Source of the DNA: Cladorhizidae sp. MBARI D1340-BT2
Lineage: Eukaryota > Porifera > Demospongiae > Poecilosclerida > Cladorhizidae
Assembly: GCA_028752905.1 (NCBI GenBank)
Contig: JAQNBH010000011.1
Location: forward strand, 1,844,803-1,908,802
Reading direction: 5' to 3'
Length of the DNA stretch: 64,000 bases
Positions 26,401 through 63,325 of the stretch are shown here, in pieces; the first letter of the stretch is position 1; each line of letters starts with the position of its first letter. The notes under the pieces are model-generated. The model made no database searches and was not told where the DNA came from. It saw only the letters and a list, made by a program, of their open reading frames with translations. The position numbers and the translations under genes were made by a program.

Positions 26401-29400
26401 GAGGGCAATCTCATTGCTGGTGATGACTTGATCCCAAGCTTAGTCTCACCGCCACAGCAATGACCGTAGAGAGTGCGAATCATCGGTGAAAATACACGCT
26501 TTTCTCCATATTTTTGGCATTTCCGGATGCAATATTTGGTACAGACGTAGAGCAAATATAGCCATGGAACAAAGGTGCAATTTTTTAACACATTTTTGAA
26601 AATTGCTCTGCCTTATGGCGCTTACTGCGGTTAGAGGGTTAAGGGCAGATGCACGAGGGTACCCTGTGTGGCCAGCCCCTACTCAGGGGCAGATTCATGA
26701 GGGTACCCTGTGTGGCCAGCCCCTACTCAGGGGCAGATGCATGAGGGTACCCTGTGTGGCCAGCCCCTACTCAGGGGCAGATGCATGAGGGTACCCTGTG
26801 TGGCCAGCCCCTACTCAGGGGCAGATGCATGAGGGTACCCTGTGTGGCCAGCCCCTACTCAGGGGCAGATGCACGAGGGTACCCTGTGTGGCCAGCCCCT
26901 ACTCAGGGGCAGATGCATGAGGGTACCCTGTGTGGCCAGCCCCTACTCAGGGGCAGATGCATGAGGCTATCCTGTGTGGTCAGGGGAAGATGCATGAGGC
27001 TATCCTGTGTGGCCAGCCCCTACTCAGGGGCAGATGCATGAGGCTATCCTGTGTGGCCAGTCCAATGAGGCAGCCATGAACAGTGACAATAGGTGACGGT
27101 GAAGCCTGAGCAATGATAGTCAACACAGTGCCCCTTAACAACAGCAGCAACCTGGAGACAGGAAGAGACAAAATGGGAATGTCAGGATTGGGCATGGAAG
27201 CTTAGCAGCAATATCATATTTAATCTCAGTGAAGCCTTATCCTATGCATGCACAGATGTGTCCTTGAAGCTCCATCTTATCCTATGCACAGATGTGTCCT
27301 TGAAGCTCCATCTTATCCTATGCATGCACAAGTGTGTCCTTGAAGCTCCATCTTATCCTATGCACAGATGTGTCCTTGAAGCTCCATCTTATCCTATGCA
27401 CAGATGTGTCCTTGAAGCTCCATCTTATCCTATGCACAGATGTGTCCTTGAAGCTCCATCTTATCCTATGCACAGATGTGTCCTTGAAGCTCCATCTTAT
27501 CTATGCACAGATGTGTCCTAGAAGCTCCATCTTATCCTATGCACAGATGTGTCCTTGAAGCGCCATCTTATCCTATGCACAGATGTGTCCTTGAAGCTCC
27601 ATCTTATCCTATGCACAGATGTGTCCTTGAAGCTCCATCTTATCCTATGCACAGATGTGTCCTTGAAGCGCCATCTTATCCTATGCACAGATGTGTCCTT
27701 GAAGCTCCATCTTATCCTATGCACAGATGTGTCCTTGAAGCTCCATCTTATCCTATGCACAGATGTGTCCTTGAAGCTCCATCTTATCTATGCACAGATG
27801 TGTCCTAGAAGCTCCATCTTATCCTATGCACAGATGTGTCCTTGAAGCGCCATCTTATCCTATGCACAGATGTGTCCTTGAAGCTCCATCTTATCCTATG
27901 CACAGATGTGTCCTTGAAGCTCCATCTTATCCTATGCACAGATGTGTCCTTGAAGCGCCATCTTATCCTATGCACAGATGTGTCCTTAAAGCTCCATCTT
28001 ATCCTATGCACAGATGTGTCCTTGAAGCTCCATCTTATCCTATGCACAGATGTTCCTTGAAGCTCCATCTTATCCTATGCACAGATGTGTCCTCCATCTT
28101 ATCCTATGCACAGATGTGTCCTTGAAGCTCCATCTTATCTATGCACAGATGTGTCCTTGAAGCTCCATCTTATCCTATGCACAGATGTGTCCTTAAAGCT
28201 CCACAAAAGATACTTCCAGCAAGAATTTCCTGCTATATTATGATGCAGGTACATAGGGGAGAAAGTTCAACCAATCATCTCCCTCCCTTTCCCTCCCTCC
28301 TCCACCTCTCCCTCCCTCCTCCACCTCTCCCCTCCCTCCTCCTCCACCTCTCCCCTCCCTCCTCCACCTCTCCCTCCTCCACCTCTCCCTCCCTCCCTCC
28401 TCCACCTCTCCCTCCCTCCTCCACCTCTCCCTCCCTCCTCCACCTCTCCCCTCCCTCCTCCACCTCTCCCCTCCCTCCTCCACCTCTCCCCTCCCTCCTC
28501 CACCTCTCCCCTCCTTCCTCCACCTCTCCCCTCCTTCCTCCACCTCTCCCCTCTCCCCCTCCTCCTCCACCTCTGCACTCCTCAGGTTTGAGCTGCCGTA
28601 CAATATCTGGTGTGGTGGGTGTGGTTCCCATGTGGGTATGGGTGTCCGGTACAATGCAGAGAAGACGCTGGTGGGTCACTATTACTCCACTCCCATCTTC
28701 AAGTTCAGGATGAAGTGTCACCTCTGCGACAACCACTTTGAGATACAAACAGACCCTAAGGTGGGTGTGGCATGCTATTGGGGTGTCCTCGCCTATTCTT
28801 TTAGGTGTGGTTTTTAAGTTAGTTCAGGGTGTGGTTTGTTCTATTTATAGAACATGGATTATGTGGTTGTGAGTGGAGCGTCAAAGAAGAATCAGACGTG
28901 GGAGCACGTAGAGGGAGAGACCGTGGCCATCGAGGGCAAGTCTGAGGTTGAGAAGCTGAGCTCTGATCCCATGTACCGACTGGAGTATGGCGTGCAAGAC
29001 AAGAAGAAGGCAGAGAAAGCAGCTCCGAATATCACAAGGATACTGGTGGGTTACCACTAGGATACTGGTAGGTTACCACTAGGATACTGGTAGGTTACCA
29101 CTAGGATACTGGTGGATTTATTACTAGGATACTGGTGGGTTACCACTAGGATACTGGTGGCTTTACTACTAGGATACTGGTGGCTTTACTACTAGGATAT
29201 TGGTGGGTTACCACTAGATACTGGTGGCTTCACTACTTAGGATATTGGTGGGTTACCACTAGGATACTGGTGGCGTTACTACTAGGATATTGGTGGCTTT
29301 ACTACTACGATACTGGTGTGTTACACTAGGATACTGGTAGGTTACCACTCGGATACTGGTGGATTTATTACTAGGATACTGGTGGCTTTACTACTAGAAT

Positions 29401-32400
29401 ACTGGTGGCTTCACTACTAGGATACTGGTGGCTTTACTACTAAGGGTTTGTGTCATCACTCAAGCCATACACATGGTGTTGACGGGGAGAGGGGGGAGGG
29501 GCAAAAGCAGAGTAAATCCAGGTTTTCATGCCCAGTGCCACGTGATCATGCGGTTGTCGCAGCTACTAACTGGCCCCGAGGCAAGGCCAGTGCGGACTGC
29601 CTAATCACATAATATTTGAGTGGAATGAACCAGTGGAATCTTTGCCAGCAGGCTGTGACAAACAACCTAGTGGCACGCGCTGTCTTTGTCTTGCAAAATG
29701 ATGAGCACATGTAGCTCATGAGACTAGTTCTTGTGATAGTCATGTGATGTGGAGGTGTGATGATGACTTGGGTGTGTCTGTTCTTGTGATAGTCATGTGA
29801 TGTGGAGTCATGTGATGTGGAAGTGTGATGATGACTTGGTTGTGACTGATCTTGTGATAGTCATGTGATGTGGAGGTGTGATGATGACTTGGGTGTGTCT
29901 GTTCTTGTGATAGGCATGTGATGTGGAGGTGTGATGATGACTTGGGTGTGTCTGTTCTTGTGATAGTTATGTGATGTGGAGGTGTGATGATGACTTGGGT
30001 GTGTCTGTTCTTGTGATAGTCATGTGATGTGGAAGTGTGATGATGACTTGGTTGTGACTGATCTTGTGATAGTCATGTGATGTGGAGGTGTGATGATGAC
30101 TTGGGTGTGTCTGTTCTTGTGATAGGCATGTGATGTGGAGGTGTGATGATGACTTGGGTGTGTGTTCTTGTGATAGTTATGTGATGTGGAGGTGTGATGA
30201 TGACTTGGGTGTGTCTGTTCTTGTGATAGTCATGTGATGTGGAAGTGTGATGATGACTTGGTTGTGACTGATCTTGTGATAGTCATGTGATGTGGAGGTG
30301 TGATGATGACTTGGGTGTGTCTGTTCTTGTGATAGTCATGTGTGTGATGTGGAAGTGTGATGATGACTTGGTTGTGACTGATCTTGTGATAGTCATGTGA
30401 TGTGGAGGTGTGATGGTGACTTGGTTGTGACTGATCTTGTGATAGTCATGTGATGTGGAAGTGTGATGATGACTTGGTTGTGACTGATCTTGTGATAGTC
30501 ATGTGATGTGGATGTGTGATGATGACTTGGTTGTGACTGATCTTGTGATAGTCATGTGATGTGGAGGTGTGATGATGACTTGGTTGTGACTGATCTTGTG
30601 ATAGTCATGTGATGATGACTTGGTTGTGACTGATCGTGTGATAGTCATGTGATGTGGAGGTGTGATGATGACTTGGTTGTGACTGATCTTGTGATAGTCA
30701 TGTGATGTGGAGGTGTGATGATGACTTGGTTGTGACAAGGATGAGATATGTGGCTCCCGTTATGGAGTCAGCGATAAGGTTGGGTTGATGAAGAACTGGA
30801 AGAGAATGGCTGTGCTGTGGTGTGGCAGATAGGAGGAATGTATAGATTATCTTGATATCTGATCTTGTGATAGTCATGTGATGTGGAAGTGTGATGATGA
30901 CTTGGTTGTGACTGATCTTGTGATAGTCATGTGATGTGGAAGTGTGATGATGACTTGGTTGTGTCTGTTCTTGTGATAGTCATGTGATGTGGAAGTGTGA
31001 TGATGACTTGGTTGTGACTGATCTTGTGATAGTGATGTGGAAGTGTGATGATGACTTGGTTGTGACTGATCTTGTGATAGTCATGTGATGTGGAGGTGTG
31101 ATGATGACTTGGTTGTGACTGTTCTTGTGATAGTCATGTGATGTGGAGGTGTGATGATGACTTGGCTGTGTCTGTTCTTGTGATAGTCATGTGATGTGGA
31201 AGTGTGATGATGACTTGGTTGTGACTGATCTTGTGATAGTCATGTGATGTGAAAGTGTGATGATGACTTGGTTGTGACTGATCTTGTGATAGTCATGTGA
31301 TGTGGAGGTGTGATGATGACTTGGCTGTGTCTGTTCTTGTGATAGTCATGTGATGTGGAAGTGTGATGATGACTTGGTTGTGACTGATCTTGTGATAGTC
31401 ATGTGATGTGGAAGTGTGATGATGACTTGGCTGTGTCTGTTCTTGTGATGGTCATGTGATGTGGAGGTGTGATGATGACTGGTTGTGACTGTGAGATGTT
31501 ATGACGCATGCAGGAGCTGCAGCAGCAGCACTTGGATGACTCAGCACTGAATTCCCTCCTCAGGAAGAAGTTCAGAGTGAGTTTTATCTTGAACTAACCT
31601 TCTTGGTGAAGGGGGGGTTGGCGATACCATTGTTTGCATATATTTTTAATTAACTTCTGTGTTACTTAGGAGTTCCATAGATTCCGCACACTTCACTCTA
31701 TGAACTTGATATATAGCTCAAAAGGTAGCTCTCTCTGTCTGCTATCTTTAGTGCATACATAGGAGGTATATGCACTATAGGTATAATCATGCCCAAGTTA
31801 TAGGCAGTCAAAGTTGGGATCCACAAAACCCGCATGCTCTGTTCTGACTCCTGATTGGAAAGTCTGTACAATTGAAATTACTATCATTGGCTAGAAGAAG
31901 TTCCACTCTACAAGCTTTCATAAGGTGCTAAAACGTGAGTACTGTGGTCTAGCACAACCCACCGCTTGACCATGTACTCATGTTCTAGTGCATGAACGTG
32001 AGTACTGTGGTCTAGCACAACCCACCGCTTGACCATGTCCTCATGTTCTAGTGCATAATGAAAGTAAAGCAGGGCTTCCTCTAGCCACGGATACCAAGTT
32101 CAACTGACGAGCACTTTCCAACCACCAGGAGCCGTATTTGCAGCAAACTCCTTCAAGATAATGAGGTACCCCACTTTGGTGCAGTTAACTTTGGCATAGT
32201 TATAGCTATGCAACATTTTAGCATCAAAAGAGAACACACAGAGAGATCTATCTTTTGAGCTATACATCAAGCTCATACAGTGAAGTGTGCAGAACCTATG
32301 GAGCTCTCAAGTCGTAACCACAAGGTATTTTAAGTTAGTCACCCCATAAAATATTTACCCTCTTAAATATTAATACTTCGTAGACTTTTGTAGCACTAAG

Positions 32401-45398: not shown

Positions 45399-48300
45399 CT
45401 GGAAGGATGTGTGAGGCATGCATTGTTAATGGTTGAAAGAGAGGGAAGCCGAGGGGAGAGATGGGAGGAAAGAGAGACAGGACGAGATGAGGAAGGAGCA
45501 ATTTAGAGACAGGGAGATTGCATAGAAAGGAGTCATAGACGAGTAACTGATGTAAAAATTCTTGGGGAAGCACCAGGTTCGAACGGTTAAAAAGATATGC
45601 CAGAGGGTGGATGAAGGGAGAGAGCCAGGGGGAGTGAGGGTGAAGAGGGAGGAGTGGGGTGGGAAGAGGGAGGAGTGGGGGTGAAGAGGGAGGAGTGGGG
45701 TGGGTGAAGAGGGAGGAGTGGGGTGGGCGAAGAGGGAGGAGTGGGGTGGGCGAAGAGGGAGGAGTGGGGTGGGCGAAGAGGGAGGAGTGGGGTGGGCGAA
45801 GAGGGAGGAGTGGGGTGGGCGAAGAGGGAGGAGTGGGGTGGGCGAAGAGGGAGGAGTGGGGTGGGCGAAGAGGGAGGAGTGGGGTGGGCGAAGAGGGAGG
45901 AGTGGGGTGGGCGAAGAGGGAGGAGTGGGGTGGGCGAAGAGGGAGGAGTGGGTTGGGCGAAGAGGGAGGAGTGGGGTGGGCGAAGAGGGAGGAGTGGGGT
46001 GGGCGAAGAGGGAGGAGTGGGTTGGGCGAAGAGGGAGGAGTGGGGTGGGCGAAGAGGGAGGAGTGGGGTGGGCGAAGAGGGAGGAGTGGGGTGGGCGAAG
46101 AGGGAGGAGTGGGTTGGGCAAAGAGGGAGGAGTGGGGTGGGTGAAGAGATGGTGGTAGCAAAGGAGAGACTGATGTAAAGACTGGGAGGAGACAAGGACA
46201 AAGTGGCACATTCCTCACTAGATGTTTGGCGTCAGTGGCCGCCTCCACATCTGGGACCCTCAGGGCGTTTGTCACGTGCTGCCACCTCCTGCGAGACTCT
46301 CCCGCCTCCTGAGCTGACAGGCGCTTCAACTTCTTGCGATAGGTGGGCGTGTTCAGTGTGTCCATAAACACCTCCTCATCCTATGGAGAGACCATCGCCA
46401 GTTACAAGAGGTCGTGAATATGTTTATAATAGAGCAACAGGTCTCCATAACACTCCATCCTGTCATCAAGTGGGTGGGTGGGGATGGAACTCCACCCATG
46501 TCATCAAGTCGGTGGGTGGGGATGGAACACCACCCATGTCATCAAGTGGGTGGGAATGGAACTCCACCCATGTCATCAAGTGGGTGGGTGGGGATGGAAC
46601 TCCACCCATGTCATCAAGTGGGTGGGAATGGAACTCCACCCATGCCATCAAGTGGGTGGGTGGGGGTGGAACTCCACCCATGTCAAAATATGTACTTATT
46701 AGAAGTACACTATAGCCACCTGCTCAACCCAGTGTGACGTGTGTGCTGATTTTGGTGACCCGGTGTGATGTGTGTCCAACACGTTCTGTAATGCTTGTAC
46801 AATAATTATCACGTGTTCACGAACGAGCAGAACCAGAGGAATTTAAGGAACATAGACTCTGAAATGCCCTCACTCTTCCAAGAGAAGGTCACCACAGGGA
46901 AGCACATGGTCACACTGAAGGCCACCCACAGGGAGCACATGGTCACACTGAAGGTCACCACAGGGAGCACATGGTCACACTGAAGGCCACCACAGGGAGC
47001 ACATGGTCACACTGAAGGCCACCACAGGGAGCACATGGTCACACTGAAGGCCACCACAGGGAGCACATGGTCACACTGAAGGCCACCACAGGGAGCACAT
47101 GGTCACACTGAAGGTCACCACAGAGAGCACATGGTCACACTGAAGGTCACCACAGGGAGCACATGGTCACACTGAAGGCCACCACAGGGAGCACATGGTC
47201 ACACTGAAGGCCACCACAGGGAGCACATGGTAACACTGAAGGTCACCACAGGGAGCACATGGTCACACTGAAGGCCACCACAGAGAGCACATGGTCACAC
47301 TGAAGGTCACCACAGGGAGCACATGGTCACACTGAAGGCCACCACAGGGAGCACATGGTCACACTGAAGGTCACCACAGGGAGCACATGGTCACACTGAA
47401 GGCCACCACAGGGAGCACATGGTCACACTGAAGGCCACCACAGGGAGCACATGGTCACACTGAAGGTCACCACAGGGAGCACATGGTCACACTGAAGGCC
47501 ACCACAGGGAGCACATGGTTCACACATCAGAAGCAATGTTTGCAAGGAATGAACTGAGCCGGACAGGCTCCAGCAAGCCATCAGGTGACACAGCTGCTTT
47601 GTGGTGTCGCAGGACACGAAGCGTGCACTTGGAAGAATCATGAACAGCATTACACAAGACCACAAAAGCTGGCAATAGAATGACTGGAAATACTTGAATG
47701 GGTATGGATTTTGAAATATAAATCTCCTCGGGTTAAGGAAGGCTGGATGATTATGACTGCTAATCGGGTGGGTTGGTTAATTAGAGGAACTTACCCCATT
47801 AGCGAGCTTCTTCATCATCACTCCATTCCACTCCCCTTCCACCTTCAACACTGGCTTCTTGTCAGACACGTGCCTAGAACCGACAGATACAACCACACAA
47901 TAATAAATAATAAACCATCCACTTATCATTGAACCACAACATTTTAACCACTTGACCACCTACTTAAAAGAGCTGTATGAGATTGAATTGTAGTGACCTC
48001 TGTCAGACCCTGCACTTGCGAGCTCTCCTACCACAAGCTTCCATCTCTACACCTAGGGAGAGCTGCCACTCCCACCAGCATATGTGGCCATAATGCTCTG
48101 TGCATATGCTAGGAACCATGGTGACTCTGAGTTGGGATTATTACAAACTCATTACAGCACTTCCGTATACTAGATACTTCTTGTAATATACTAAACACTT
48201 CCTGTAGTATACTAGATGCTTCCTGTAGTATACTAGACACTGTGCAGTTATTAGCAATAGGCTGCAGTGGTAGGTCCATTGAGGTAAGTAACCACTTGAG

Positions 48301-51300
48301 CCGGGCTCCATTGAGGTAAGTAACCACTTGAGCCGGGCTCCATTGAGGTAAGTAACCACTTGAGCCAGGCTCCATTGAGGTAAGTAACCACTTGAGCCGG
48401 GCTCCATTGAGGTAAGCATCCATACTTGAGCCGGGCTCCATTGAGGTAAGCATCCATACTTGAGCCGGGCTCCATTGAGGTAAGCATCCATACTTGAGCC
48501 CGGCTCCATTGAGGTAAGCATCCATACTTGAGCCGGGCTCCATTGAGGTAAGTAACCATACTTGAGCCGGGCTCCATTGAGGTAAGTAACCACTTGAGCC
48601 GGGCTCCATTGAAGTAAGCAACCACTTGAGCCGGGCTCCATTGAGGTAAGTAACCACTTGAGCCTGGCTCCATTGAGGTAAGCAACCACTTGAGCCGGGC
48701 TCCATTGAGGTAAGTAACCATACTTGAGCCGGCCTCCATTGAGGTAAGTAACCATACTTGAGCCGGGCTCCATTGAGGTAAGTAACCACTTGAGCCGGGC
48801 TCCATTGAGGTAAGTAACCACTTGAGCCGGGCTCCATTGAGGTAAGTAACCACTTGAGCCAGGCTCCATTGAGGTAAGCAACCACTTGAGCCGGGCTCCA
48901 TTGAGGTAAGTAACCATACTTGAGCCGGGCTCCATTGAGGTAAGTAACCATACTTGAGCCGGGCTCCATTGAGGTAAGTAACCACTTGAGCCGGGCTCCA
49001 TTGAGGTAAGTAACCACTTGAGCCGGGCTCCATTGAGGTAAGCATCCATACTTGAGCCGGGCTCCATTGAGGTAAGCATCCATACTTGAGTCAGGCTCCA
49101 TTGAGGTAAGTAACCACTTGAGCCGGGCTCCATTGAGGTAAGTAACCATACTTGAGCCGGGCTCCATTGAGGGGTAAGTAACCATACTTGAGCCCGGCTC
49201 CATTGAGGGGTAAGTAACTATACTTGAGTCAGGCTCCATTGAGGTAAGTAACCACTTGAGCCTGGCTCCATTGAGGTAAGCTACCATACTTGAGCCGGGC
49301 TCCATTGAGGTAAGTAACCATACTTGAGCCGGGCTCCATTGAGGTAAGTAACCATACTTGAGCCGGACTCCATTGAGGTAAGTAACCACTTGAGCCGGGC
49401 TCCATTGAGGTAAGCATCCATACTTGAGCCGGGCTCCATTGAGGTAAGCATCTATACTTGAGCCAGGCTCCATTGAGGTAAGCAACCACTTGAGCCGGGC
49501 TCCATTGAGGTAAGTAACCACTTGAGCCGGGCTCCATTGAGGTAAGTAACCACTTGAGCCGGGCTCCATTGAGGTAAGTAACCACTTGAGCCGGGCTCCA
49601 TTGAGGTAAGTAACCATACTTGAGCCAGGCTCCATTGAGGTAAGTAACCACTTGAGCCGGGCTCCATTGAGGTAAGTAACCACTTGAGCCGGGCTCCATT
49701 GAGGTAAGTAACCACTTGAGCCGGGCTCCATTGAGGTAAGTAACCACTTGAGTCGGGCTCCATTGAGGTAAGTAACCATACTTGAGCCCGGCTCCATTGA
49801 GGTAAGTAACTATACTTGAGCCGGACTCCATTGAGGTAAGTAACCACTTGAGCCGGGCTCCATTGAGGTAAGTAACCATACTTGAGCCCGGCTCCATTGA
49901 GGTAAGCTACCATACTTGAGCCCGGCTCCATTGAGGTAAGCTACCATACTTGAGCCGGGCTCCATTGAGGTAAGTAACCATACTTGAGCCGGACTCCATT
50001 GAGGTAAGCAACCACTTGAGCTGGGCTCCATTGAGGTAAGTAACCACTTGAGCCGGGCTCCATTGAGGTAAGTAACTATACTTGAGCCGGACTCCATTGA
50101 GGTAAGTAACCATACTTGAGCCGGGCTCCATTGAGGTAAGTAACCACTTGAGCCCGGCTCCATTGAGGTAAGCAACTATACTTGAGCCGGGCTCCATTGA
50201 GGTAAGTAACCACTTGAGCCCGGCTCCATTGAGGTAAGCTACCATACTTGAGCCCGGCTCCATTGAGGTAAGCTACCATACTTGAGCCGGGCTCCATTGA
50301 GGTAAGTAACCATACTTGAGCCGGGCTCCATTGAGGTAAGTAACCATACTTGAGCCGGACTCCATTGAGGTAAGCAACCACTTGAGCCGGGCTCCATTGA
50401 GGTAAGTAACCACTTGAGCCGGGCTCCATTGAGGTAAGTAACTATACTTGAGCCGGACTCCATTGAGGTAAGTAACCACTTGAGCCGGGCTCCATTGAGG
50501 TAAGTAACCACTTGAGCCGGGCTCCATTGAGGTAAGCAACCATACTTGAGCCGGGCTCCATTGAGGTAAGTATCCATACTTGAGCCGGGCTCCATTGAGG
50601 TAAGTAACTATACTTGAGCCCGGCTCCATTGAGGTAAGTATCCATACTTGAGCCGGGCTCCATTGAGGTAAGTAACCACTTGAGCCGGGCTCCATTGAGG
50701 TAAGTAACCATACTTGAGCCCGGCTCCATTGAGGTAAGCAACCATACTTGAGCCGGGCTATGTACACTCCAGAAGATGAAACCATCCAGGAGCACCTCCT
50801 CTCTCAAGGGAAGGGACCAGAGTGCTACCACTGTCCAATAATGGAGGAAATCATTTTCAGTTTCAAAATTATCTTCATGAAGGAAGTGCATAAGGTACAG
50901 AATATCCTTGAGCTGCTTGGCACGTTCCTTCCTCTGCTCCTCTGCTGGTACACGACTAACAGGTGCACTTCTCTTGGCCTTCTTGGAGGGGCAGCTCACA
51001 TGCATAGAGGACCGTGGCAATCAAAGATTACTAATATTGGTCATCAGTTAAGGACTGTGGCAATCGAAGATTACTAATATTGGTCATCAGTTAAGAACTG
51101 TGGCTATTAAAGATTACTAATATTGGTCATCAGTTAAGAACTGTGGCTATCAAAGATTACTAATATTGGTCATCAGTTAAGGACTGTGGCAATCAAAGAT
51201 TACTAATATTGGTCATCAGTTAAGGACTGTGGTAATCAAAGATTACTAATATTGGTCATCAGTTAAGGACTATAACAATCAAAGATTACTAATATTGGTC

Positions 51301-53054: not shown

Positions 53055-56000
53055 ACATGTACCCTCCCTCACCTCCCATAAGCATTAGGCAGGTTACAAG
53101 TATACACTTCATTGTAGTCCAGCAGGTGAAGATTCACTACATGGAAGGTAAAGGGTGGCTATAGTTAGCAAATAATTGGGTGGCTATAGTTAGCAAATAA
53201 TTGGGTAAGGGATATATGTGATGGGTAAGGGGTGGGTGTGATGGGTAAGGGTTGGATGTGATGGGTAGGGGTGGATGTGATGGGTATTTGGATGTGATGG
53301 GCAAGGGGTGGATGTGATGGGTAAGGGGTGGATGTGGTGGGTAAGGGGTAGATGTGATGGTTAGGTTTGGATGTGATGGGTAAGGTTTGGATGTGATGGG
53401 TAAGGTTTGGATGTGATGGGTAAGGGGTGGATGTGATGGGTAAGGGATGATTGTAGTAGGTAAAAGATGAGTCTCAAGGAAGATATTTGGTAAAGGGTCT
53501 GAAAGGTAAAGGGAAGAAAATTTGTGAAGTTGGTGATGGTGAAGATTGTCACTAGCGTAGTCAGAGAACACGTCTGCACAAGTAGCACGACACCACTTGA
53601 CTTGGTCAGCTGATTAGGACCAGTTACATCATCGTTACTGATATGCTTTGATGTCGATGAGAAGCTATGCTCACAGTCTTGCCTTGTCATCACAGGCATA
53701 AGGAAGAGAGTGAGAGCTTCCAGACTTGCCTGGCAGTTTTAGTAACAAGAATGCTAGCCCGTGCAATAAGCATGTAACATCCTCAAAGATTACTAGAATA
53801 GGTTGTAAAATACTTTAAGGTTACTAGAATAGCAGCCGTGTCATAAGGCGACAACAGTGTACATATAATTAAAAGGTAAAGGGTGATCACATGAATAAAC
53901 ATTGGTCATACCTGAGCCTATATTGTGAACTCCCAGAGACAGACCCAGAAACTTCGACTTGGTCCAGATGGAGCCACTCACATACATGTTCTTAGAGGGA
54001 CATTCAGCATAGAACCCGGACACTACAGCAACACCAACAAGTCGCTGTCACATGCATGTTCTTAGAGGGACATTCAGCATGCACCCAGACATTACAGCAA
54101 CACCAACAAGTGCCTGTCACATGCATGTTCTTAGAGGGACATTCAGCATGCACCCAGACATTACAGCAACACCAACAAGTGCCTGTCACATGCATGTTCT
54201 TAGAGGGACACTCAGCATGCACCCAGACATTACAGCAACACCAACAAGTGCCTGTCACATGCATATTCTTAGAGGGACACTCAGCATGCACCCAGACATT
54301 ACAGCAACACCAACAAGTGCCTGTCACATGCATGTTCTTAGAGGGACACTCAGCATGCACCCAGACATTACAGCAACACCAACAAGTGCCTGTCACATGC
54401 ATGTTCTTAGAGGGACACTCAGCATGCACCCAGACATTACAGCAACACCAACAAGTGCCTGTCACATGCATGTTCTTAGAGGGACACTCAGCATGCACCC
54501 AGACATTACAGCAACACCAACAAGTGCCTGTCACATGCATGTTCTTAGAGGGACACTCGGCATGCACCCAGACATTACAGCAACACCAACAAGTGCCTGT
54601 CACATGCATGTTCTTAGAGGGACACTCAGCATGCACCCAGACATTACAGCAACACCAACAAGTGCCTGTCACATGCATGTTCTTAGAGGGACACTCAGCA
54701 TGCACCCAGACATTACAGCAACACCAACAAGTGCCTGTCACATGCATGTTCTTAGAGGGACACTCAGCATGCACCCAGACATTACAGCAACACCAACAAG
54801 TGCCTGTCACATGCATGTTCTTAGAGGGACACTCAGCATGCACCCAGACATTACAGCAACACCAACAAGTGCCTGTCACATGCATGTTCTTAGAGGGACA
54901 CTCAGCATGCACCCAGACATTACAGCAACACCAACAAGTGCCTGTCACATGCATGTTCTTAGAGGGACACTCAGCATGCACCCAGACATTACAGCAACAC
55001 CAACAAGTGCCTGTCACATGCATGTTCTTAGAGGGACACTCGGCATGCACCCAGACATTACAGCAACACCAACAAGTGCCTGTCACATGCATGTTCTTAG
55101 AGGGACACTCAGCATGCACCCAGACATTACAGCAACACCAACAAGTGCCGTCACATGCATGTTCTTAGAGGGACACTCAGCATGCACCCAGACATTACAG
55201 CAACACCAACAAGTGCCTGTCACATGCATGTTCTTAGAGGGACACTCAGCATGCACCCAGACATTACAGCAACACCAACAAGTGCCTGTCACATGCATGT
55301 TCTTAGAGGGACACTCAGCATGCACCCGGACACTACAGCAATACCAACAAGTGCCTGTCACATGCATGTTCTTAGAGGGACACTCAGCATGCACCCAGAC
55401 ATTACAGCAACAAGTGCCTGTCACATGCATGTTCTTAGAGGGACACTCAGCATGCACCCAGACATTACAGCAACACCAACAAGTGCCTGTCACATGCATG
55501 TTCTTAGAGGGACACTCAGCATGCACCCAGACATTACAGCAACAAGTGCCTGTCACATGCATGTTCTTAGAGGGACACTCAGCATGCACCCAGACATTAC
55601 AGCAACACCAACAAGTGCCTGTCACATGCATGTTCTTAGAGGGACACTCAGCATGCACCCAGACATTACAGCAACACCAACAAGTCACATGTCACATGCA
55701 TGTTCTTAGAGGGACACTCAGCATGCACCCAGACATTACAGCAACACCAACAAGTGCCTGTCACATGCATGTTCTTAGAGGGACACTCAGCATGCACCCA
55801 GACATTACAGCAACACCAACAAGTGCCTGTCACATGCATGTTCTTAGAGGGACACTCAGCATGCACCCAGACATTACAGCAACACCAACAAGTGCCTGTC
55901 ACATGCATGTTCTTAGAGGGACACTCGGCATGCACCCAGACATTACAGCAACACCAACAAGTGCCTGTCACATGCATGTTCTTAGAGGGACACTCAGCAT

Positions 56001-59000
56001 GCACCCAGACATTACAGCAACACCAACAAGTGCCTGTCACATGCATGTTCTTAGAGGGACACTCAGCATGCACCCAGACATTACAGCAACACCAACAAGT
56101 GCCTGTCACATGCATGTTCTTAGAGGGACACTCAGCCTGCACCCAGACATTACAGCAACACCAACAAGTGCCTGTCACATGCATGTTCTTAGAGGGACAC
56201 TCGGCATGCACCCAGACATTACAGCAACACCAACAAGTGCCTGTCACATGCATGTTCTTAGAGGGACACTCAGCATGCACCCAGACATTACAGCAACACC
56301 AACAAGTGCCTGTCACATGCATGTTCTTAGAGGGACACTCAGCATGCACCCAGACATTACAGCAACACCAACAAGTGCCTGTCACATGCATGTTCTTAGA
56401 GGGACACTCGGCATGCACCCAGACATTACAGCAACACCAACAAGTGCCTGTCACATGCATGTTCTTAGAGGGACACTCGGCATGCACCCAGACATTACAG
56501 CAACACCAACAAGTGCCTGTCACATGCATGTTCTTAGAGGGACACTCGGCATGCACCCAGACATTACAGCAACACCAACAAGTGCCTGTCACATGCATGT
56601 TCTTAGAGGGACACTCGGCATGCACCCAGACATTACAGCAACACCAACAAGTGCCTGTCACATGCATGTTCTTAGAGGGACACTCAGCATGCACCCAGAC
56701 ATTACAGCAACACCAACAAGTGCCTGTCACATGCATGTTCTTAGAGGGACACTCAGCATGCACCCAGACATTACAGCAACACCAACAAGTGCCTGTCACA
56801 TGCATGTTCTTAGAGGGACACTCAGCATGCACCCAGACATTACAGCAACACCAACAAGTGCCTGTCACATGCATGTTCTTAGAGGGACACTCGGCATGCA
56901 CCCAGACATTACAGCAACACCAACAAGTGCCTGTCACATGCATGTTCTTAGAGGGACACTCGGCATGCACCCAGACATTACAGCAACACCAACAAGTGCC
57001 TGTCACATGCATGTTCTTAGAGGGACACTCGGCATGCACCCAGACATTACAGCAACACCAACAAGTGCCTGTCACATGCATGTTCTTAGAGGGACACTCG
57101 GCATGCACCCAGACATTACAGCAACACCAACAAGTGCCTGTCACATGCATGTTCTTAGAGGGACACTCAGCATGCACCCAGACATTACAGCAACACCAAC
57201 AAGTGCCTGTCACATGCATGTTCTTAGAGGGACACTCAGCATGCACCCAGACATTACAGCAACACCAACAAGTGCCTGTCACATGCATGTTCTTAGAGGG
57301 ACACTCAGCATGCACCCAGACATTACAGCAACACCAACAAGTGCCTGTCACATGCATGTTCTTAGAGGGACACTCGGCATGCACCCAGACATTACAGAAC
57401 ACCAACAAGTGCCTGTCACATGCATGTTCTTAGAGGGACACTCGGCATGCACCCAGACATTACAGCAACACCAACAAGTGCCTGTCACATGCATGTTCTT
57501 AGAGGGACACTCGGCATGCACCCAGACATTACAGCAACACCAACAAGTGCCTGTCACATGCATGTTCTTAGAGGGACACTCGGCATGCACCCAGACATTA
57601 CAGCAACACCAACAAGTGCCTGTCACATGCATGTTCTTAGAGGGACACTCAGCATGCACCCAGACATTACAGCAACACCAACAAGTGCCTGTCACATGCA
57701 TGTTCTTAGAGGAACACTCAGCATGCACCCAGACATTACAGCAACACCAACAAGTGCCTGTCACATGCATGTTCTTAGAGGGACACTCAGCATGCACCCA
57801 GACATTACAGCAACACCAACAAGTGCCTGTCACATGCATGTTCTTAGAGGGACACTCAGCATGCACCCAGACATTACAGCAACACCAACAAGTGCCTGTC
57901 ACATGCATGTTCTTAGAGGGATGCATGCACAGTGTGTTAGATAATAATAACTAGCAATGCATGCAGTGTGCTAGATAATAATAACTGTCCTATTTCAAGC
58001 TGGCTTCTGCTATCTGGTAAGGATTACATCAGCTATAAACCAGTGCAACCAGGTCAGTCTAGCTTGGAATCTGTTGCCATGCTCTCTCCATTACGACGAA
58101 CATTCCAGTTTACGTACCCCACATTATTTAAGGTTCGTATTATTTTACGGTTCAACGTGTGGGGCATAGTGCCAATCTGCAAACAAACAACTATTTGGAT
58201 TGAGTGTCAAACAAGGAAGGAACCAGGAGTGTGCTCATCTATAGGTTTGATGACCCTTTACCATCTGGAAGTATTTGAGTACTTTTTTTTTTGAGCTCAA
58301 TCCTTTCCTGCCGTTGCTTCTGTTGTTGTTGTTGCTGTTGTTGCTCCTGTTGTTGTTGCTGCTGCTGTTATTGTTGCTATTGTTGTTGTTTTAGTACGAA
58401 TTCAAGCATTGAGCATGTGGGAAACAGCGATTGCTGATGCCCTATTGAAATCATAGATTGTTAGATTGCATTACTCTAGCCATTGTCCTGGCCCTGACAT
58501 AGCTGAAGGCCTAATACAGCACTGATCTATACATTATCTTAGCTTGAAATGCTAGCATTGCTAGATGCATTGCTCTAGCCATTGTCCTGGCCCCAGCATA
58601 GCTGAAGGCCTAATACAGCACTGATCTATAGCTTGAAATGCTAGCATTGCTAGATGCATTGCTCTAGCCATTGTCCTAGCCCCAGCATAGCTGAAGTCCT
58701 AATACAGCACTGATCTATACATTATCTTAGCTTGAAATGCTAGTATTGCTAGATGCATTGCTCTAGCCATCGTCCTGGCCCCAGCATAGCTGAAGTCCAC
58801 TGATCTATACATATCTTAGCTTGAAATGCTAGTATTGCTAGATGCATTGCTCTAGCCATCGTCCTGGCCCCAGCATAGCTGAAGGCCTAATACAGCACTG
58901 ATTTAAAGTTTCCTTGTCGTAATGCCTGGAAAGGGATATGAATGAGTAGAATTGTACTGTATGTATTTATATATTCCAAAACTCCTGTGGCATTGAACGA

Positions 59001-62000
59001 CTGATGCCCTGCAACAGAATGGGATGGCAACATCTAAAGCAGAAGAGCGCATGATGGGAGTGTCTGTGAGAGAAGTCTTGGTATGAGTGCTTGGAAGCAG
59101 CTTCCCTTGAAGATGGGAAGCACGCTACACTAAGAGTGAGCTCATCAGGCAGAGCTTTCTGCTAAAGGGAAGACTATGCAGAAGCTGACAAGAACTTGTT
59201 AAAGTGATGGTGTAGTTTGCACTCTTGACTCTGTTCTGGATGCTCTCCACATTCACATATTTCTCTCCACTGACCAGTTTTTTCCTTCCTACATGTGCCA
59301 GTTATGTAGCCAGTTCTTTGTCCACAGAGAGTGCCAGTACGTGTTTCTACCAGCGAGACTGATAATAGTTCTGCATCGTCATGAGAAAAACAGTGTAGCA
59401 ATCTCCATAGCTAGAGCCCGTTGACACCATGCTGGAGGACCACCCCACTCCTCTCTCACACCATGCTGGAGGGCCACCCCACTCCTTGCTAGTCTACAGG
59501 TTGGCACAACACATGACTTATTACCATGTGCATTAGCAGCTGATGGCTGTAGTCATAGTTACATGTACATGTATGTCCTTATTAAGTGTGCGCATGCTGC
59601 AGTTGTTTAGTGTGCTAGCCCTGGGGGGTGCCCCCAAGCCTCCATAGAAGATCGGGTTTCGCATGAAAATGTTCCCATCGTTACATCCTTCCACCCCCCC
59701 CCCCCCCCCCCCACCCCCCCAAAGAAAAACCCCTGTAGTCAACCCTGGTTTAGGTTGGGAGGGAGGGTGAGTGGAGATGCTTTGGAGTCGGCCATTTTGA
59801 AACAAGGATGGACCAATATAGCACCGACATTCTCTGATATGACAGCACTATGGTGTTTCTGTTTGTGATGACCATTACCTGGTGGGTGGTGAGAGACTTG
59901 CTCAGCCACAAAGGTGACACTGTTGTAGCTAGCGTACGGCACCGGTCCACTCTCTAGCATCACCTGCACACATCACACACCATCACACATCGCACACCAT
60001 CACTATGACACATCACACACCATCACTATGACACACACTGTCACACACCATCACTATGACACACACTGTCACACACCACATATATACACCATCACTATGA
60101 CACATCATCACACACCATCACTATGTCACATACCATCATATGTACACCATCACTATGACACACCGCACACATCACCACACATCCTCCCACAATCATGAAG
60201 CCACACCCTCCCAGACTAGGCCACACCTTTGCTTCGTCACTTGGTGGCACTCGGGTGGAGTTCTGCAGGTCCCAGTAACATCGGAAGGTCTCCCCGAGAA
60301 TGGGATTATACGGTTTCTTGGCGATAGTCCCACTCCTGGCCGCATGGAAGGAGGACAAGTAGTAGCGCACGATGGCAATGATACGATCCTTAGGGTGGGA
60401 GTGGTCAGGGATACTGCAGTGTGTGTGGGGGGGGAGGGGGGGGGGGTGATATTTAATTGAGCTACTACTTGGACTCTGAACTGTTCCTTCTATATATTTG
60501 TGGTCGTTTGTAGACTTATTCTCGTTATTGCTCGAGGGGGTGTGAGTGTATAAAGAAAGTGATGGAGGCCTCCTTGAAGCTGAGGGGGTGTGAGTGTATA
60601 AAGTGATGGAGACCTCCTTGAAGCTGAGGGTGTGTGAGTGTATAAAGTGATGGAGGCCTCCTTGAAGCTGAGGGTGTGTGAGTGTATAAAGTGATGGAGG
60701 CCTCCTTGAAGCTGAGGGGGTGTGAGTGTATAAAGTGATGGAGGCCTCCTTGAAGCTGAGGGGGTATGAGTGTATAAAGTGATGGAGGCCTCCTTGAAGC
60801 TGAGGGTGTGTGTGAGTGTATAAAGTGATGGAGGCCTCCTTGAAGCTGAGGGGGTGTGAGTGTATAAAGTGATGGAGGCCTCCTTGAAGATGAGGTGGTG
60901 TGAGTGTATAAAGTGATGGAGGCCTCCTTGAAGCTGAGGGTGTGTGAGTGTATAAAGTGATGGAGGCCTCCTTGAAGCTGAGGGTGTGTGAGTGTATAAA
61001 GTGATGGAGGCCTCCTTGAAGCTGAGGGTGTGTGAGTGTATAAAGTGATGGAGGCCTCCTTGAAGCTGAGGGTGTGCGAGTGTATAAAGTGATGGAGGCC
61101 TCCTTGAAGCTGAGGGGGTGTGAGTGTATAAAGTGATGGAGGCCTCCTTGAAGCTGAGGGGGTGTGAGTGTATAAAGTGTTGGAGGCCTCCTTGAAGCTG
61201 AGGTGGTGTGAGTGTATAAAGTGATGGAGGCCTCCTTGAAGCTGAGGGTGTGTGAGTGTATAAAGTGATGGAGACCTCCTTGAAGCTGAGGGGGTGTGAG
61301 TGTATAAAGTGATGGAGACCTCCTTGAAGCTGCAGGTGTGTGAGTGTATAAAGTGATGGAGGCCTCCTTGAAGCTGAGGGGGTGTGAGTGTATAAAGTGA
61401 TGGAGGCCTCCTTGAAGCTGAGGGTGTGTGAGTGTATAAAGTGATGAGGCCTCCTTGAAGCTGAGGGTGTGTGAGTGTATAAAGTGATGGAGACCTCCTT
61501 GAAGCTGAGGGTGTGTGAGTGTATAAAGTGATGGAGGCCTCCTTGAAGCTGAGGGTGTGTGAGTGTATAAAGTGATGGAGGCCTACTTGAAGCTGAGGGG
61601 TGTGAGTGTATAAAGTGATGGAGGCCTCCTTGAAGCTGAGGTGGTGTGAGTGTATAAAGTGATGGAGGCCTCCTTGAAGCTGAGGGTGTGTGAGTGTATA
61701 AAGTGATGGAGGCCTCCTTGAAGCTGAGGGTGTGTGAGTGTATAAAGTGATGGAGGCCTCCTTGAAGCTGAGGGTGTGTGAGTGTATAAAGTGATGGAGG
61801 CCTCCTTGAAGCTGAGGTGGTGTGAGTGTATAAAGTGATGGAGGCCTCCTTGAAGCTGAGGGGGTGTGAGTGTATAAAGTGATGGCGACCTCCTTGAAGC
61901 TGAGGGTGTGTGAGTGTATAAAGTGATGGAGGCCTCCTTGAAGCTGAGGGGGTGTGAGTGTATAAAGTGATGGAGGCCTCCTTGAAGCTGAGGGTGTGTG

Positions 62001-63325
62001 AGTGTATAAAGTGATGGAGGCCTACTTGAAGCTGAGGGGGTGTGAGTGTATAAAGTGATGGAGGCCTCCTTGAAGCTGAGGGGGTGTGAGTGTATAAAGT
62101 GATGGAGGCCTCCTTGAAGCTGAGGGGTGTGTGAGTGTATAAAGTGATGGAGACCTCCTCGAAACATGACCGTACAGCTGTCAGTAATAACATTGTTGAT
62201 CGAAAGAATGAGGGAGATGGAAGAGAGGGAAATGGATGAGGAGGGATGAGGGAGATGGAAGAGAAGGGGCAATGGAGGTAGAAGAGGAGGGACATGGGAG
62301 ATGGAAGAGAAGGGGGAAAGATGGAGGAGATAAACTTGTGGAAGATAGAAGAGGAGAATGATGGGGTGGGGGGAGAAGGGACCATTCAACAACTTACGCA
62401 GCAAAGATGTCGGCATGTGCCAGGAACTCGGCATACATCTCCAGCAGCGAGCGCTTCTCCAGGATGAAGGTGGGCAGGACTATGCGGGTCAGGTCCATGC
62501 CCACACGAACTTGAGACAACATATACATGATCAGACTCTTGTTCTCCTGCACTCCGTCTAGGGGGGGGAGGGACGAGGGGACAGTCACATACAAACCACA
62601 CCTCCTTCCTCCTCCGCTCTAGCCCTCTTTCTTCATGTCTTCCCCCTAACCACCTTGCCTACGTGTACTTACATATGTGTCCCACCTCACAACATGTGCA
62701 TGAGTCTCCTGCCCCACCCACCCTCCACACACACACACACACACACACAAATTCTAGGGGGTTCTTGAAAGTTTATGTAAGGGGGAGGGGGGAGTCTGTG
62801 AAATCATATGGGGGGGGGGAGCGAGTTATTTTTATGAGGAGGCATGAAATCAATCGTGTTCTTCTTAACTCCACTCCTATCGCCAGAGGTATCGTATCCC
62901 CTCCCCTTCCACTCTGCACATACTCACCAGAGGAACTGTCCCCCTCATCCTAACCACACCCCACATACTCAACAGAGGAACTGTCCCCTCATCGTAACCA
63001 CACCCCACATACTCAGCAGAGGCACTGTCCCCCTCATTGTAACTCCACCCACACGTACTCACCAGAGGTCCTCCTCATCGTAACCACACCACACATACTC
63101 ACCGGAGGTTCCCCTCATCGTAGCCACACACCCACGTGCTCACCGGATGTGTTGTCCTCCTCATCGTAGTCTTCATCCTCCTCCACGTCAGAAGGATCTC
63201 CCTCTGCAACAGGGATACTGACCGCAGCGGGACGGGCACTCGTAGGCACACTCACTGACCACTCCCCCTCCATCTCGGCATCAAAGAACTCCTCGTCACT
63301 GTTGTTGTCGCTGGTGCTGCTGTTG
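45228..63325 (-). CDS. Oxysterol-binding-protein-related protein (ORP9/10/11 type), lipid-transfer domain; 10 exons, N-terminus off right edge
   Basis: Exons in transcript order are 63325-63144, 62557-62398, 60413-60227, 59963-59879, 54022-53912, 53136-53073, 52566-52426, 47873-47795, 46380-46219 and 45398-45228. They total 1342 nt with continuous phase and a final TGA. ORPs move sterols or phosphatidylserine against PI4P at membrane contacts. Landmarks in order: acidic '[13 protein letters not shown]' (FFAT-like, predicted VAP binding at the ER), '[16 protein letters not shown]', '[13 protein letters not shown]', the signature '[10 protein letters not shown]' with the His pair that contacts PI4P, '[17 protein letters not shown]', '[10 protein letters not shown]', '[14 protein letters not shown]', '[11 protein letters not shown]', '[11 protein letters not shown]', '[17 protein letters not shown]'. 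The PH domain expected upstream is outside the window. The EFFDA motif favours an ORP9-like member, but 9, 10 and 11 cannot be separated safely here. Confidence 0.93.
45630..46155. repeat. 23-bp purine-rich minisatellite, about 22 copies, in the last ORP intron
   Basis: The unit is GAAGAGGGAGGAGTGGGGTG plus GGC. It is stop-free in several frames on both strands, producing false ORFs up to 358 codons. 45399-45629 is unique. Confidence 0.95.
46219..46380 (-). CDS. ORP exon ([11 protein letters not shown])
   Basis: Fifty-four codons, DEEVFMDT to DAKHL, matching the 'YESRRLWKDVT...AATEAKH' segment of ORP9/11. The donor is GTGAGG. Confidence 0.92.
46445..46690. repeat. ~34-40-bp minisatellite, 6 copies
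   Basis: The unit contains GTCATCAAGTGGGTGGG and GGAACTCCACCCAT; the ends of a unit can pair (GGGTGG/CCACCC). Confidence 0.88.
46885..47523. repeat. 32-bp minisatellite, about 20 copies
   Basis: The unit is CACAGGGAGCACATGGTCAC then ACTGAAGGCCAC. 47524-47794 is unique. Confidence 0.95.
47795..47873 (-). CDS. ORP exon ([11 protein letters not shown])
   Basis: A 79-nt exon with '[15 protein letters not shown]', the near-universal GEWNG motif. Acceptor is GGTTCTAG and donor is GTAAGT. Confidence 0.93.
47874..48277. other. ORP intron, unique part
   Basis: Short TAGTATACTAGA-type repeats near 48160-48240; no exon recognised. Confidence 0.5.
48278..50758. repeat. 32/35-bp minisatellite, about 74 copies
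   Basis: The unit is TTGAGGTAAGTAACC, optionally ATA, then CTTGAGCCGGGCTCCA. Variants (TAAGCATCC, TAAGCTACC, CCCGG) occur in ordered blocks, so the array grew by segmental copying. Each copy on the plus strand is a consensus 5' splice site (GAG/GTAAGT). Minus-strand frames of up to 562 codons are artefacts. Confidence 0.95.
50759..51000 (-). other. Open stretch of unknown nature in an ORP intron
   Basis: The minus frame from 51020 to about 50757 reads '[20 protein letters not shown]' and '[20 protein letters not shown]', more protein-like than the flanking arrays. No family recognised, no clear splice sites, and the adjoining ORP exons already join in phase without it. Confidence 0.3.
51000..51365. 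repeat. 43-bp minisatellite, 8 copies
   Basis: The unit contains AAAGATTACTAATATTGGTC and ATCAGTTAAGGACTGTGGCA. Confidence 0.93.
51420..51970. repeat. 35-bp minisatellite, about 15 copies
   Basis: The unit is GGAGCAGCAGTGATGACCTA then CTGTTGCAGCTGCCT. CAGCTG and GCAGC make it locally palindromic. Confidence 0.95.
51971..52425. other. ORP intron, unique part
   Basis: No exon recognised. A CA microsatellite adjoins the donor of exon 52426-52566. Confidence 0.5.
52426..52566 (-). CDS. ORP exon (ELGGK...[14 protein letters not shown])
   Basis: Conserved ORD core. The donor is GTACGT, and CA/TG microsatellites lie on both sides. Confidence 0.95.
52567..53072. repeat. Short repeats in an ORP intron
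   Basis: CA/TG microsatellite 52581-52640, a ~34-bp repeat CTTAGTAGTGGCCATGCCAT (about 4 copies, 52855-52945), and an AGT trinucleotide run 53020-53054. Confidence 0.85.
53073..53136 (-). CDS. ORP exon ([16 protein letters not shown])
   Basis: A 64-nt exon matching the ORD beta-strand block before 'RSILT'. An AGT trinucleotide run (53020-53054) lies just downstream of the donor. Confidence 0.9.
53190..53460. repeat. ~20-bp minisatellite, about 13 copies
   Basis: The unit is GATGTGATGGGTAAGGGGTG with length variation. 53461-53911 is unique intron. Confidence 0.92.
53912..54022 (-). CDS. ORP exon whose 5' edge seeded the 69-bp array
   Basis: Encodes '(V)[17 protein letters not shown]' and '[17 protein letters not shown]'. 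The acceptor is TTGCTGTAG and the donor is GTATGA. Confidence 0.95.
54023..57925 (-). repeat. 69-bp minisatellite, about 56 copies, copied from the 3' splice site of ORP exon 53912-54022
   Basis: On the minus strand each unit reads TGTTGGTGTTGCTGTAATG, then CTGGGTGCATGCTGAATGT, then CCCTCTAAGAACATGCATGT and GACAGGCACT. The single-copy exon edge has the same order with TGCTGTAG as acceptor. 69 is divisible by 3 and the unit lacks stops, so frames stay open for up to 1300 codons (plus strand 54052-57954) without being genes. A few copies have 6-12-bp deletions (near 55405, 55545, 57396). Confidence 0.97.
57926..59878. repeat. ORP intron, right part, with a ~100-bp tandem repeat
   Basis: 58460-58905 holds about 4.5 copies of a ~100-bp unit (GCTCTAGCCATTGTCCTGGC, AGCATAGCTGAAGGCCTAAT). 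58310-58390 is a TTG/CTG microsatellite and 59690-59715 a C-run. Elsewhere unique; no exon recognised. Confidence 0.8.
59879..59963 (-). CDS. ORP exon with EQVSHHPP signature
   Basis: Encodes '[20 protein letters not shown]' and ends in phase 1 within the codon after the Pro pair. Donor is GTAATG. Confidence 0.96.
59964..60175. repeat. CACACCATCACTATGACA-type short repeat
   Basis: About 8 degenerate copies immediately upstream (in transcript sense) of the EQVSHHPP exon. Confidence 0.85.
60227..60413 (-). CDS. ORP exon with [10 protein letters not shown] motif
   Basis: Reads '[20 protein letters not shown]' then '[20 protein letters not shown]'. This is a core ORD block. The donor is GTGTGG. 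Confidence 0.95.
60520..62158. repeat. 44-bp minisatellite, about 37 copies
   Basis: The unit is GTGATGGAGGCCTCCTTGAA, then GCTGAGGGTGTGTGAGTGTA and TAAA. GGAGGCCTCC is a 10-bp palindrome in most copies. Minus-strand ORFs of 631 and 283 codons are by-products. 62159-62397 is a purine-rich unique stretch. Confidence 0.95.
62398..62557 (-). CDS. ORP exon, start of the lipid-transfer domain
   Basis: Contains '[20 protein letters not shown]' and '[17 protein letters not shown]', the conserved opening of the ORD. Donor is GTAAGT; the acceptor follows a C-run. Confidence 0.94.
62558..62880. other. ORP intron, unique part
   Basis: Contains a CA microsatellite (62729-62749) and G-runs near 62805-62820. 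Confidence 0.5.
62885..63143 (-). repeat. ~43-bp repeat copied from the 5' splice site of the FFAT exon, about 5 copies
   Basis: On the minus strand each unit reads TACGATGAGG...CCG/GTGAGTACGTG-like, matching exon end TACGATGAGGAGG..TCCG and donor GTGAGCACGTG. Intact GT donors remain in copies near 63096, 63058 and 62927; copies near 63014 and 62968 have lost GT. Confidence 0.88.
63144..63325 (-). CDS. ORP exon with FFAT-like motif
   Basis: Starts '[20 protein letters not shown]' and ends in a Glu/Asp-rich tract. EFFDA fits five of the FFAT core positions and the preceding acids fit the flank. The seventh core position is Met rather than Glu. Its donor (TCCG/GTGAGC) seeds the array at 62885-63140. 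Confidence 0.85.

Follow-up and report, generated by a model that had tools for sequence, protein, structure and literature searches.

An almost wholly acceptor-dead array of exon-border copies in the intron of an ORP gene

How does the 3' splice site of a gene come to lie beside dozens of copies of itself, and do those copies matter to splicing? The question is raised by a 64,000-nucleotide stretch of contig JAQNBH010000011.1 (assembly GCA_028752905.1, positions 1,844,803 to 1,908,802; hereafter the window, whose numbering is used unless a contig or locus is named), in which a 69-bp minisatellite at 53978..57921, read on the minus strand, runs up to an exon of an oxysterol-binding-protein-related (ORP) gene. 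Tandem duplications of exon-intron borders are described in lancelets under the name of "mirages" (PMC3087553), and we consider it very probable that the ORP array is a mirage: a border duplication amplified within the intron, and probably a spliced-out, length-variable passenger without a function of its own. Among the grounds for this assignment are the same structure at other borders nearby and the published precedent of the same anatomy.

Tandem Repeats Finder gave 57.3 copies of the unit with 98% matches, confirming the extent and number that had been proposed (53981-57925, about 56 copies). Cutting at a fixed anchor yielded 57 segments, namely 56 copies followed by the real border, with lengths of 69 (51 segments), 68 (2), 70 (2), and 63 bp (2). 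These segments comprise 12 distinct sequences, with 45 of the 57 falling into two types; those of 69 bp differ at 0.74 positions on average, suggesting that the expansion or homogenization of the array is recent. The T/C variants are clustered along the array (15 runs, whereas 5000 shuffles average 23.6; p = 0.004), a pattern that unequal exchange or conversion would give. The interior is homogenized, and the copies beside the exon are diverged and carry exon states; the two that adjoin it have GAATGTC like the exon, and the others have GAGTGTC or a variant. Long open frames run through the array on both strands, the longest being an antisense frame of 1313 amino acids (54013-57954, plus strand), since the 69-bp unit is a whole number of codons and has no stops in those frames; they were taken as no evidence of coding, and a coding role was rejected. 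A special RNA structure at the array end was also rejected, its fold being ordinary (z = 0.72; 75 of 100 shuffles fold equally well).

The host gene is intact. Nine minus-strand exons from 62557 to 45232 join in one continuous frame, and the joined product matches Pfam Oxysterol_BP at 1.2e-72; these ORD-domain exons lie at 62557-62398, 60413-60227, 59963-59879, 54022-53912, and 53136-53073, followed by 52566-52426, 47873-47795, 46380-46219, and 45398-45232. The authentic border stands undamaged at the edge of the array: the exon at 53912..54022 (minus strand) has the acceptor TGCTGTAG/TGTCC (slash, splice junction) and the donor TCAG/GTATG, and its first 45 nt form the last, partial unit of the array. 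The preceding exon occupies 59879..59963 on the same strand, at a distance of 5856 bp. Among solved structures, the best relative of the protein is ORP8 (entry 8p7a, 1.2e-62); because this alignment crosses the array junction, the acceptor at 54022 is well supported by homology.

The unit holds both exon and intron sequence of this one real border. On the minus strand it consists of about 24 nt of intron tail and the 45-nt exon start (54022-53978), which reads AECPSKNM in the exon and in the array copies alike. Within 6 kb, the intron side holds 55 near-copies of the 24-nt border sequence with at most five mismatches, compared with none for 20 shuffled versions, so that the copies are not due to chance. 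The authentic, last border reads TTGCTGTAG/TGTCCGGGTTCTATGCTGAATGTCCC. In the common unit, TTGCTGTAA TGTCTGGGTGCATGCTGAGTGTCCC, the acceptor AG is gone and the frame is one base short. The original prediction, which placed the array directly upstream of the real ORP exon and composed its unit of an intron tail, an acceptor, and about 45 nt of exon, is thus borne out in its placement and in both flanking parts, but not in the acceptor, which is AA in 55 of the 56 upstream copies. The AG is kept in unit 38 (55310..55378, minus strand; TGTAG/TGTCCGGG, first base after the AG at 55332), which has TAG and CCGG as in the exon but the shortened TGCATGC as in the array; it reads most simply as an intermediate, in which the border would have been copied and one base lost, after which the AG would have been lost and the copy amplified. 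An ATGTGA microhomology was noticed by eye in the unit and the exon, at the candidate site of the original duplication. Dispersal of the unit away from ORP genes, which the original prediction had named as the outcome that would speak against it, was looked for and not found: in the 857-Mb assembly, a 30-base core is matched at up to three mismatches 54 times, in every case inside the array (real border included), a reversed control pattern of the core has none, and all 19 matches of a 276-base array query fall at this locus. A dispersed repeat was therefore rejected.

A history that would account for this anatomy begins with a short tandem duplication over the ORP 3' splice site, by which the last 24 nt or so of the intron and the first 45 nt of the exon would have been placed in the intron. 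Ordinary minisatellite turnover (slippage, unequal exchange, or conversion) could then have raised the number to 56 copies, while selection would have maintained the copy beside the exon as the real border. In an intermediate copy the AG would have persisted with one base of the exon frame already lost; a later type, with AA in place of AG, would be the source of most copies. The array would be intron throughout, most likely spliced out in a single step that ends at the last unit, and presumably neutral; the simplest reading is a single intron of 5856 bp.

The splice signals left in the array bear on this history. The array contains 169 AGs, including the real acceptor; according to a reading-frame test, splicing to any of the other 168 would lead to a stop codon upstream of the exon's 3' end, after 14 codons in the case of unit 38. 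Three AGs besides the lost one persist in nearly every unit, with upstream pyrimidine contents of 0.35, 0.53, and 0.65. Weak use of some of these presumably silent array AGs may occur. Several points weigh against the mirage reading in its full form. One of the three AGs in each unit follows a richer pyrimidine stretch than the real acceptor does (0.65 versus 0.59), and 93 AGs of the intron match or beat the real acceptor on the crude pyrimidine score, which therefore fails to single out the real site; that transcripts use the last unit alone is something we infer from the genomic sequence. In addition, 0 of 18 borders in nine exons of ORP paralogues on other contigs have at least two copies (one border has a single copy), in a survey where the script misplaced at least two borders (an acceptor inside the exon, a donor far downstream), where the flank was no longer than about 1.5 kb for several borders, and which did not extend to a fourth paralogue, on contig C18; the generality of mirages in this genome is accordingly uncertain.

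We surveyed a sample of 264 kb, consisting of the 64-kb window and twenty 10-kb stretches beside it, with 5 kb masked. Tandem repeats fill 44% of this sample, and those with units of at least 10 bp and at least three copies fill 40%; the latter form 139 non-overlapping arrays, 28 of which are at least 1 kb long. This minisatellite load is very heavy and includes arrays of 3 to 7 kb, among which the ORP array ranks fourth by length in the sample. Borders that adjoin an array are common in this sample, and borders that lie within one are rarer. The border survey took in 30 exons with 57 borders in six genes, picked from 109 codon-scored segments by codon score and recognition of their proteins, unrecognized segments being dropped. 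By the strict copy test, 4 of the 57 borders are mirages, a fifth case was found by eye, and the copies are without exception on the intron side.

In the strict cases other than the ORP array, AG or GT is kept. In a Saf4/Yju2 gene, a donor mirage at 29037..29442 (plus strand; AGGATACTG/GTGGGTTACCACT, 23 bp x 18) has GT in 6/6 strict copies and repeats the last bases of the exon at 28851..29045 (plus strand); the Pfam match reaches about 29030, and the homology thus ends about 15 nt before the first following GT, at 29046. A gene with ILEI and GNT-I domains according to Pfam, which we take to be POMGNT1-like, contributes two. Its donor mirage (TGGCCTTGGCTG/GTGAGAGG, a 38-bp array at donor 107146, locus L013) has GT in 14/14 strict copies and in 17/19 copies of a fuller listing, and the copied exon part lies inside the Pfam match. 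Its putative acceptor mirage (GTGTAG/GATGTGTACAAGG, acceptor 119187, locus L014) has AG in 4/4 strict copies; homology starts 27 nt inside the exon, with two other AGs in between. The case found by eye is a second, more diverged mirage farther upstream in the ORP gene that carries the 69-bp array, at 62917..63168 (minus strand), where the exon end GATGAGGAGGACAACACATCCG/GTGAG, at 63144, is repeated in five diverged copies, with GT in 3/5 by eye and no copies in the strict test. The 69-bp ORP array is the largest of the four strict cases and almost wholly acceptor-dead. The description of the array as unusual must thus be divided: arrays of its kind are known as mirages, and three strict and one diverged further case occur in these 264 kb, but its size and dead acceptors do stand out.

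The rate of 4 in 57 should be read with the make-up of the survey in mind. Pfam was run on separate pieces (5 of 13 for AGL, 4 of 4 for the POMGNT1-like gene, one Yju2, one NDUFB7, and one "RAD54-like" exon); one AGL and one POMGNT1-like piece fall below the curated cut-off, and the RAD54-like exon has no real match. The other AGL exons, like the ORP exon whose end is at 63144, were recognized by eye. Border positions were derived from a crude score, and some were hand-chosen, including the POMGNT1-like acceptors 119187 and 107345 and the AGL acceptor -7515. Random placement of founders over the sample would give an expected 0.5 to 0.8 of 57 borders versus the 4 observed, a comparison in which the window was chosen for one case (3/56 without it), genes cluster, and the choice of exons was selective. 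The figures hint at an excess of arrays at exon borders, which we treat as a lead and not as a claim.

Could the loss of the AG itself have been what allowed the array to grow? A possible, if doubtful, alternative is that selection shaped the array: acceptor arrays would become large only once the AG has been lost, so that a dead acceptor is required for expansion. The contrast that prompts it is clear, since the AG is kept in 1/56 copies here and AG or GT in all strict copies of the three smaller arrays. However, it concerns a single array; five to seven changes separate the unit from the border, which gives a chance of 0.14 to 0.19 that one of them hits the AG if they fall at random; the strict copy test favors copies in which the border is kept; and the POMGNT1-like donor array exists with 17 of 19 GTs alive. 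AG loss as proof of selection was for these reasons set aside. A wider proposal, that exon borders are favored birthplaces of minisatellites in this non-lancelet genome and that acceptor arrays become large only after a founder has lost its AG, strikes us as unlikely. Were it true, the tolerance of decoy splice sites could be read from each array; and if exon borders are indeed favored, the origin of minisatellites becomes testable by comparing borders across species.

The original prediction also held that the transcript presents "dozens of decoys before the true acceptor," which does not hold for the homologous site, as this is dead in nearly all copies, and the other AGs lead to stops. A regulatory version, in which the array is a cluster of decoys, its repeated pseudo-acceptors competing with the true one and controlling the amount of productive ORP mRNA through nonsense-mediated decay, is in our view quite improbable. 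Because every other AG would end in a premature stop, any use of the array would indeed reduce the yield of message, the GU-rich tract is mostly preserved in each unit together with a branch-point-like GTGAC motif noted by eye, and by its pyrimidine content the real acceptor is not a strong one; however, 55 of the 56 homologous AGs are gone, the fold of the array end is ordinary, and in the tested cases covered by the excerpt of PMC3087553, mirages seemed not to disturb splicing. That an unrelated intronic minisatellite abuts the exon by chance, or that the assembly is at fault, is scarcely credible: with so much of the sample in tandem repeats, arrays beside exons are to be expected, but the unit contains 45 nt of exon coding for conserved residues and shuffled borders gave 0 copies, which refutes a chance overlap, and a 55.6-Mb contig with patterned unit variants is untypical of assembly error.

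Other arrays were recorded along the way. A near-identical ORP exon with a similar short-unit intronic array occurs at C3:37530911-37531033 (L040) and C5:34154168-34154290 (L041), a pair that would be either a retained haplotype or a recent duplication. In another ORP gene (L042, 1540-2250), an array starts just past the exon donor; judged by eye, it has no exon sequence and so is not a mirage. Within the window, a 34-bp array of 75 copies (48275-50759, plus strand, opposite to the ORP gene) has a 5'-splice-site-like GAGGTAAGT in its unit, and no exon was recognized there. Around a piggyBac-type transposase gene lie three separate arrays, at 35398-35612, 38303-39201, and 41501-41671, which have much of the unit TTAACACTCCTTATATATTAACACTTCATG in common and are perhaps a dispersed minisatellite linked to that element; matches to DDE_Tnp_1_7 (piggyBac-type transposase) lie at 5310-6719, 36681-37790, and 39900-40178 on the plus strand, one of them spanning most of the profile.

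Is the host simply a lancelet? In the COX1 sequences of the assembly, TGA stands for Trp and AGA/AGG occurs at conserved Arg positions (FPRLNN, NMRAPG, and DTRAYF), a combination that we take to be translation table 4. Lancelet mitochondria are not known to read AGR as Arg; the host is therefore not a lancelet, the COX1 contigs being assumed to belong to the same organism as the array. The table-4 code and the conserved COX1 suggest that it may be a sponge or some other non-bilaterian. Contigs C124 to C128 (C124, 139,618 bp) carry many complete and partial COX1 copies in one orientation at irregular spacing (one of 4073 bp), as if the mitochondrial DNA were multipartite or concatenated.

The presence of several mirages within 264 kb of a genome with a different mitochondrial code suggests that such arrays form in any genome rich in minisatellites, and they show one route of minisatellite birth, a short duplication across a splice site. 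They also offer a natural test of how the spliceosome singles out one of many copies of a border, and of whether an array needs dead copies in order to grow.

Comparison with known systems, as far as excerpts of the published papers reach, places the ORP array as follows. Among the literature matches listed, no other report of a large border-derived array was found, and the word "mirage" is used for border arrays in lancelet papers only; the excerpts of PMC12783039 and PMC3045353 deal with intronic repeats, and no border copies are described in them. Tandem duplication of splice-site sequence has been invoked for intron gain in Drosophila (PMC2891723, PMC2809761), but there a new intron results, whereas the ORP array lengthens an existing intron and shows no sign of a new one. 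In human duplicated genes, minisatellites are found at exon-intron boundaries, as here, with on average four 30-bp units in variable number (PMC2812944); however, those repeats alter the transcript, with 27 intron modifications and novel introns created by cryptic sites, whereas in the ORP gene the exon and its border appear unaltered, with the copies confined to the intron side. Closer are the lancelet cases. Tandem repeats over splice sites of lancelet PGBD5, with troponin C also cited, are inferred by the authors to be spliced accurately (PMC3902484), but they are few and imperfect (60-bp and 3 x 108-bp repeats in PGBD5). The amphioxus Adh3 mirages (Canestro et al. 2002, via PMC3087553 and PMC3902484) have 10- to 72-bp units across exon-intron borders like those of the ORP array; they are polymorphic, even somatically, and no aberrant mRNA is reported in the excerpts that cite them. 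In the mirages of BflGb6, border copies at 3' or 5' splice sites are likewise minisatellite-like, with the 3' end of the intron joined to the start of the exon, but two haplotypes have 6 and 3 copies of about 150- to 160-bp units, compared with 56 copies of 69 bp here (PMC3087553). In lancelets, RT-PCR suggested regular splicing, and lengths are unstable (PMC3087553). Interior copies are homogenized there, as in the ORP array, with edge copies left out; many lancelet copies, though not all, keep their AG or GT (PMC3087553), whereas the ORP array keeps 1/56, and its host is not a cephalochordate. The ORP array is thus of a known kind, the mirage, here large, acceptor-dead, and outside lancelets.

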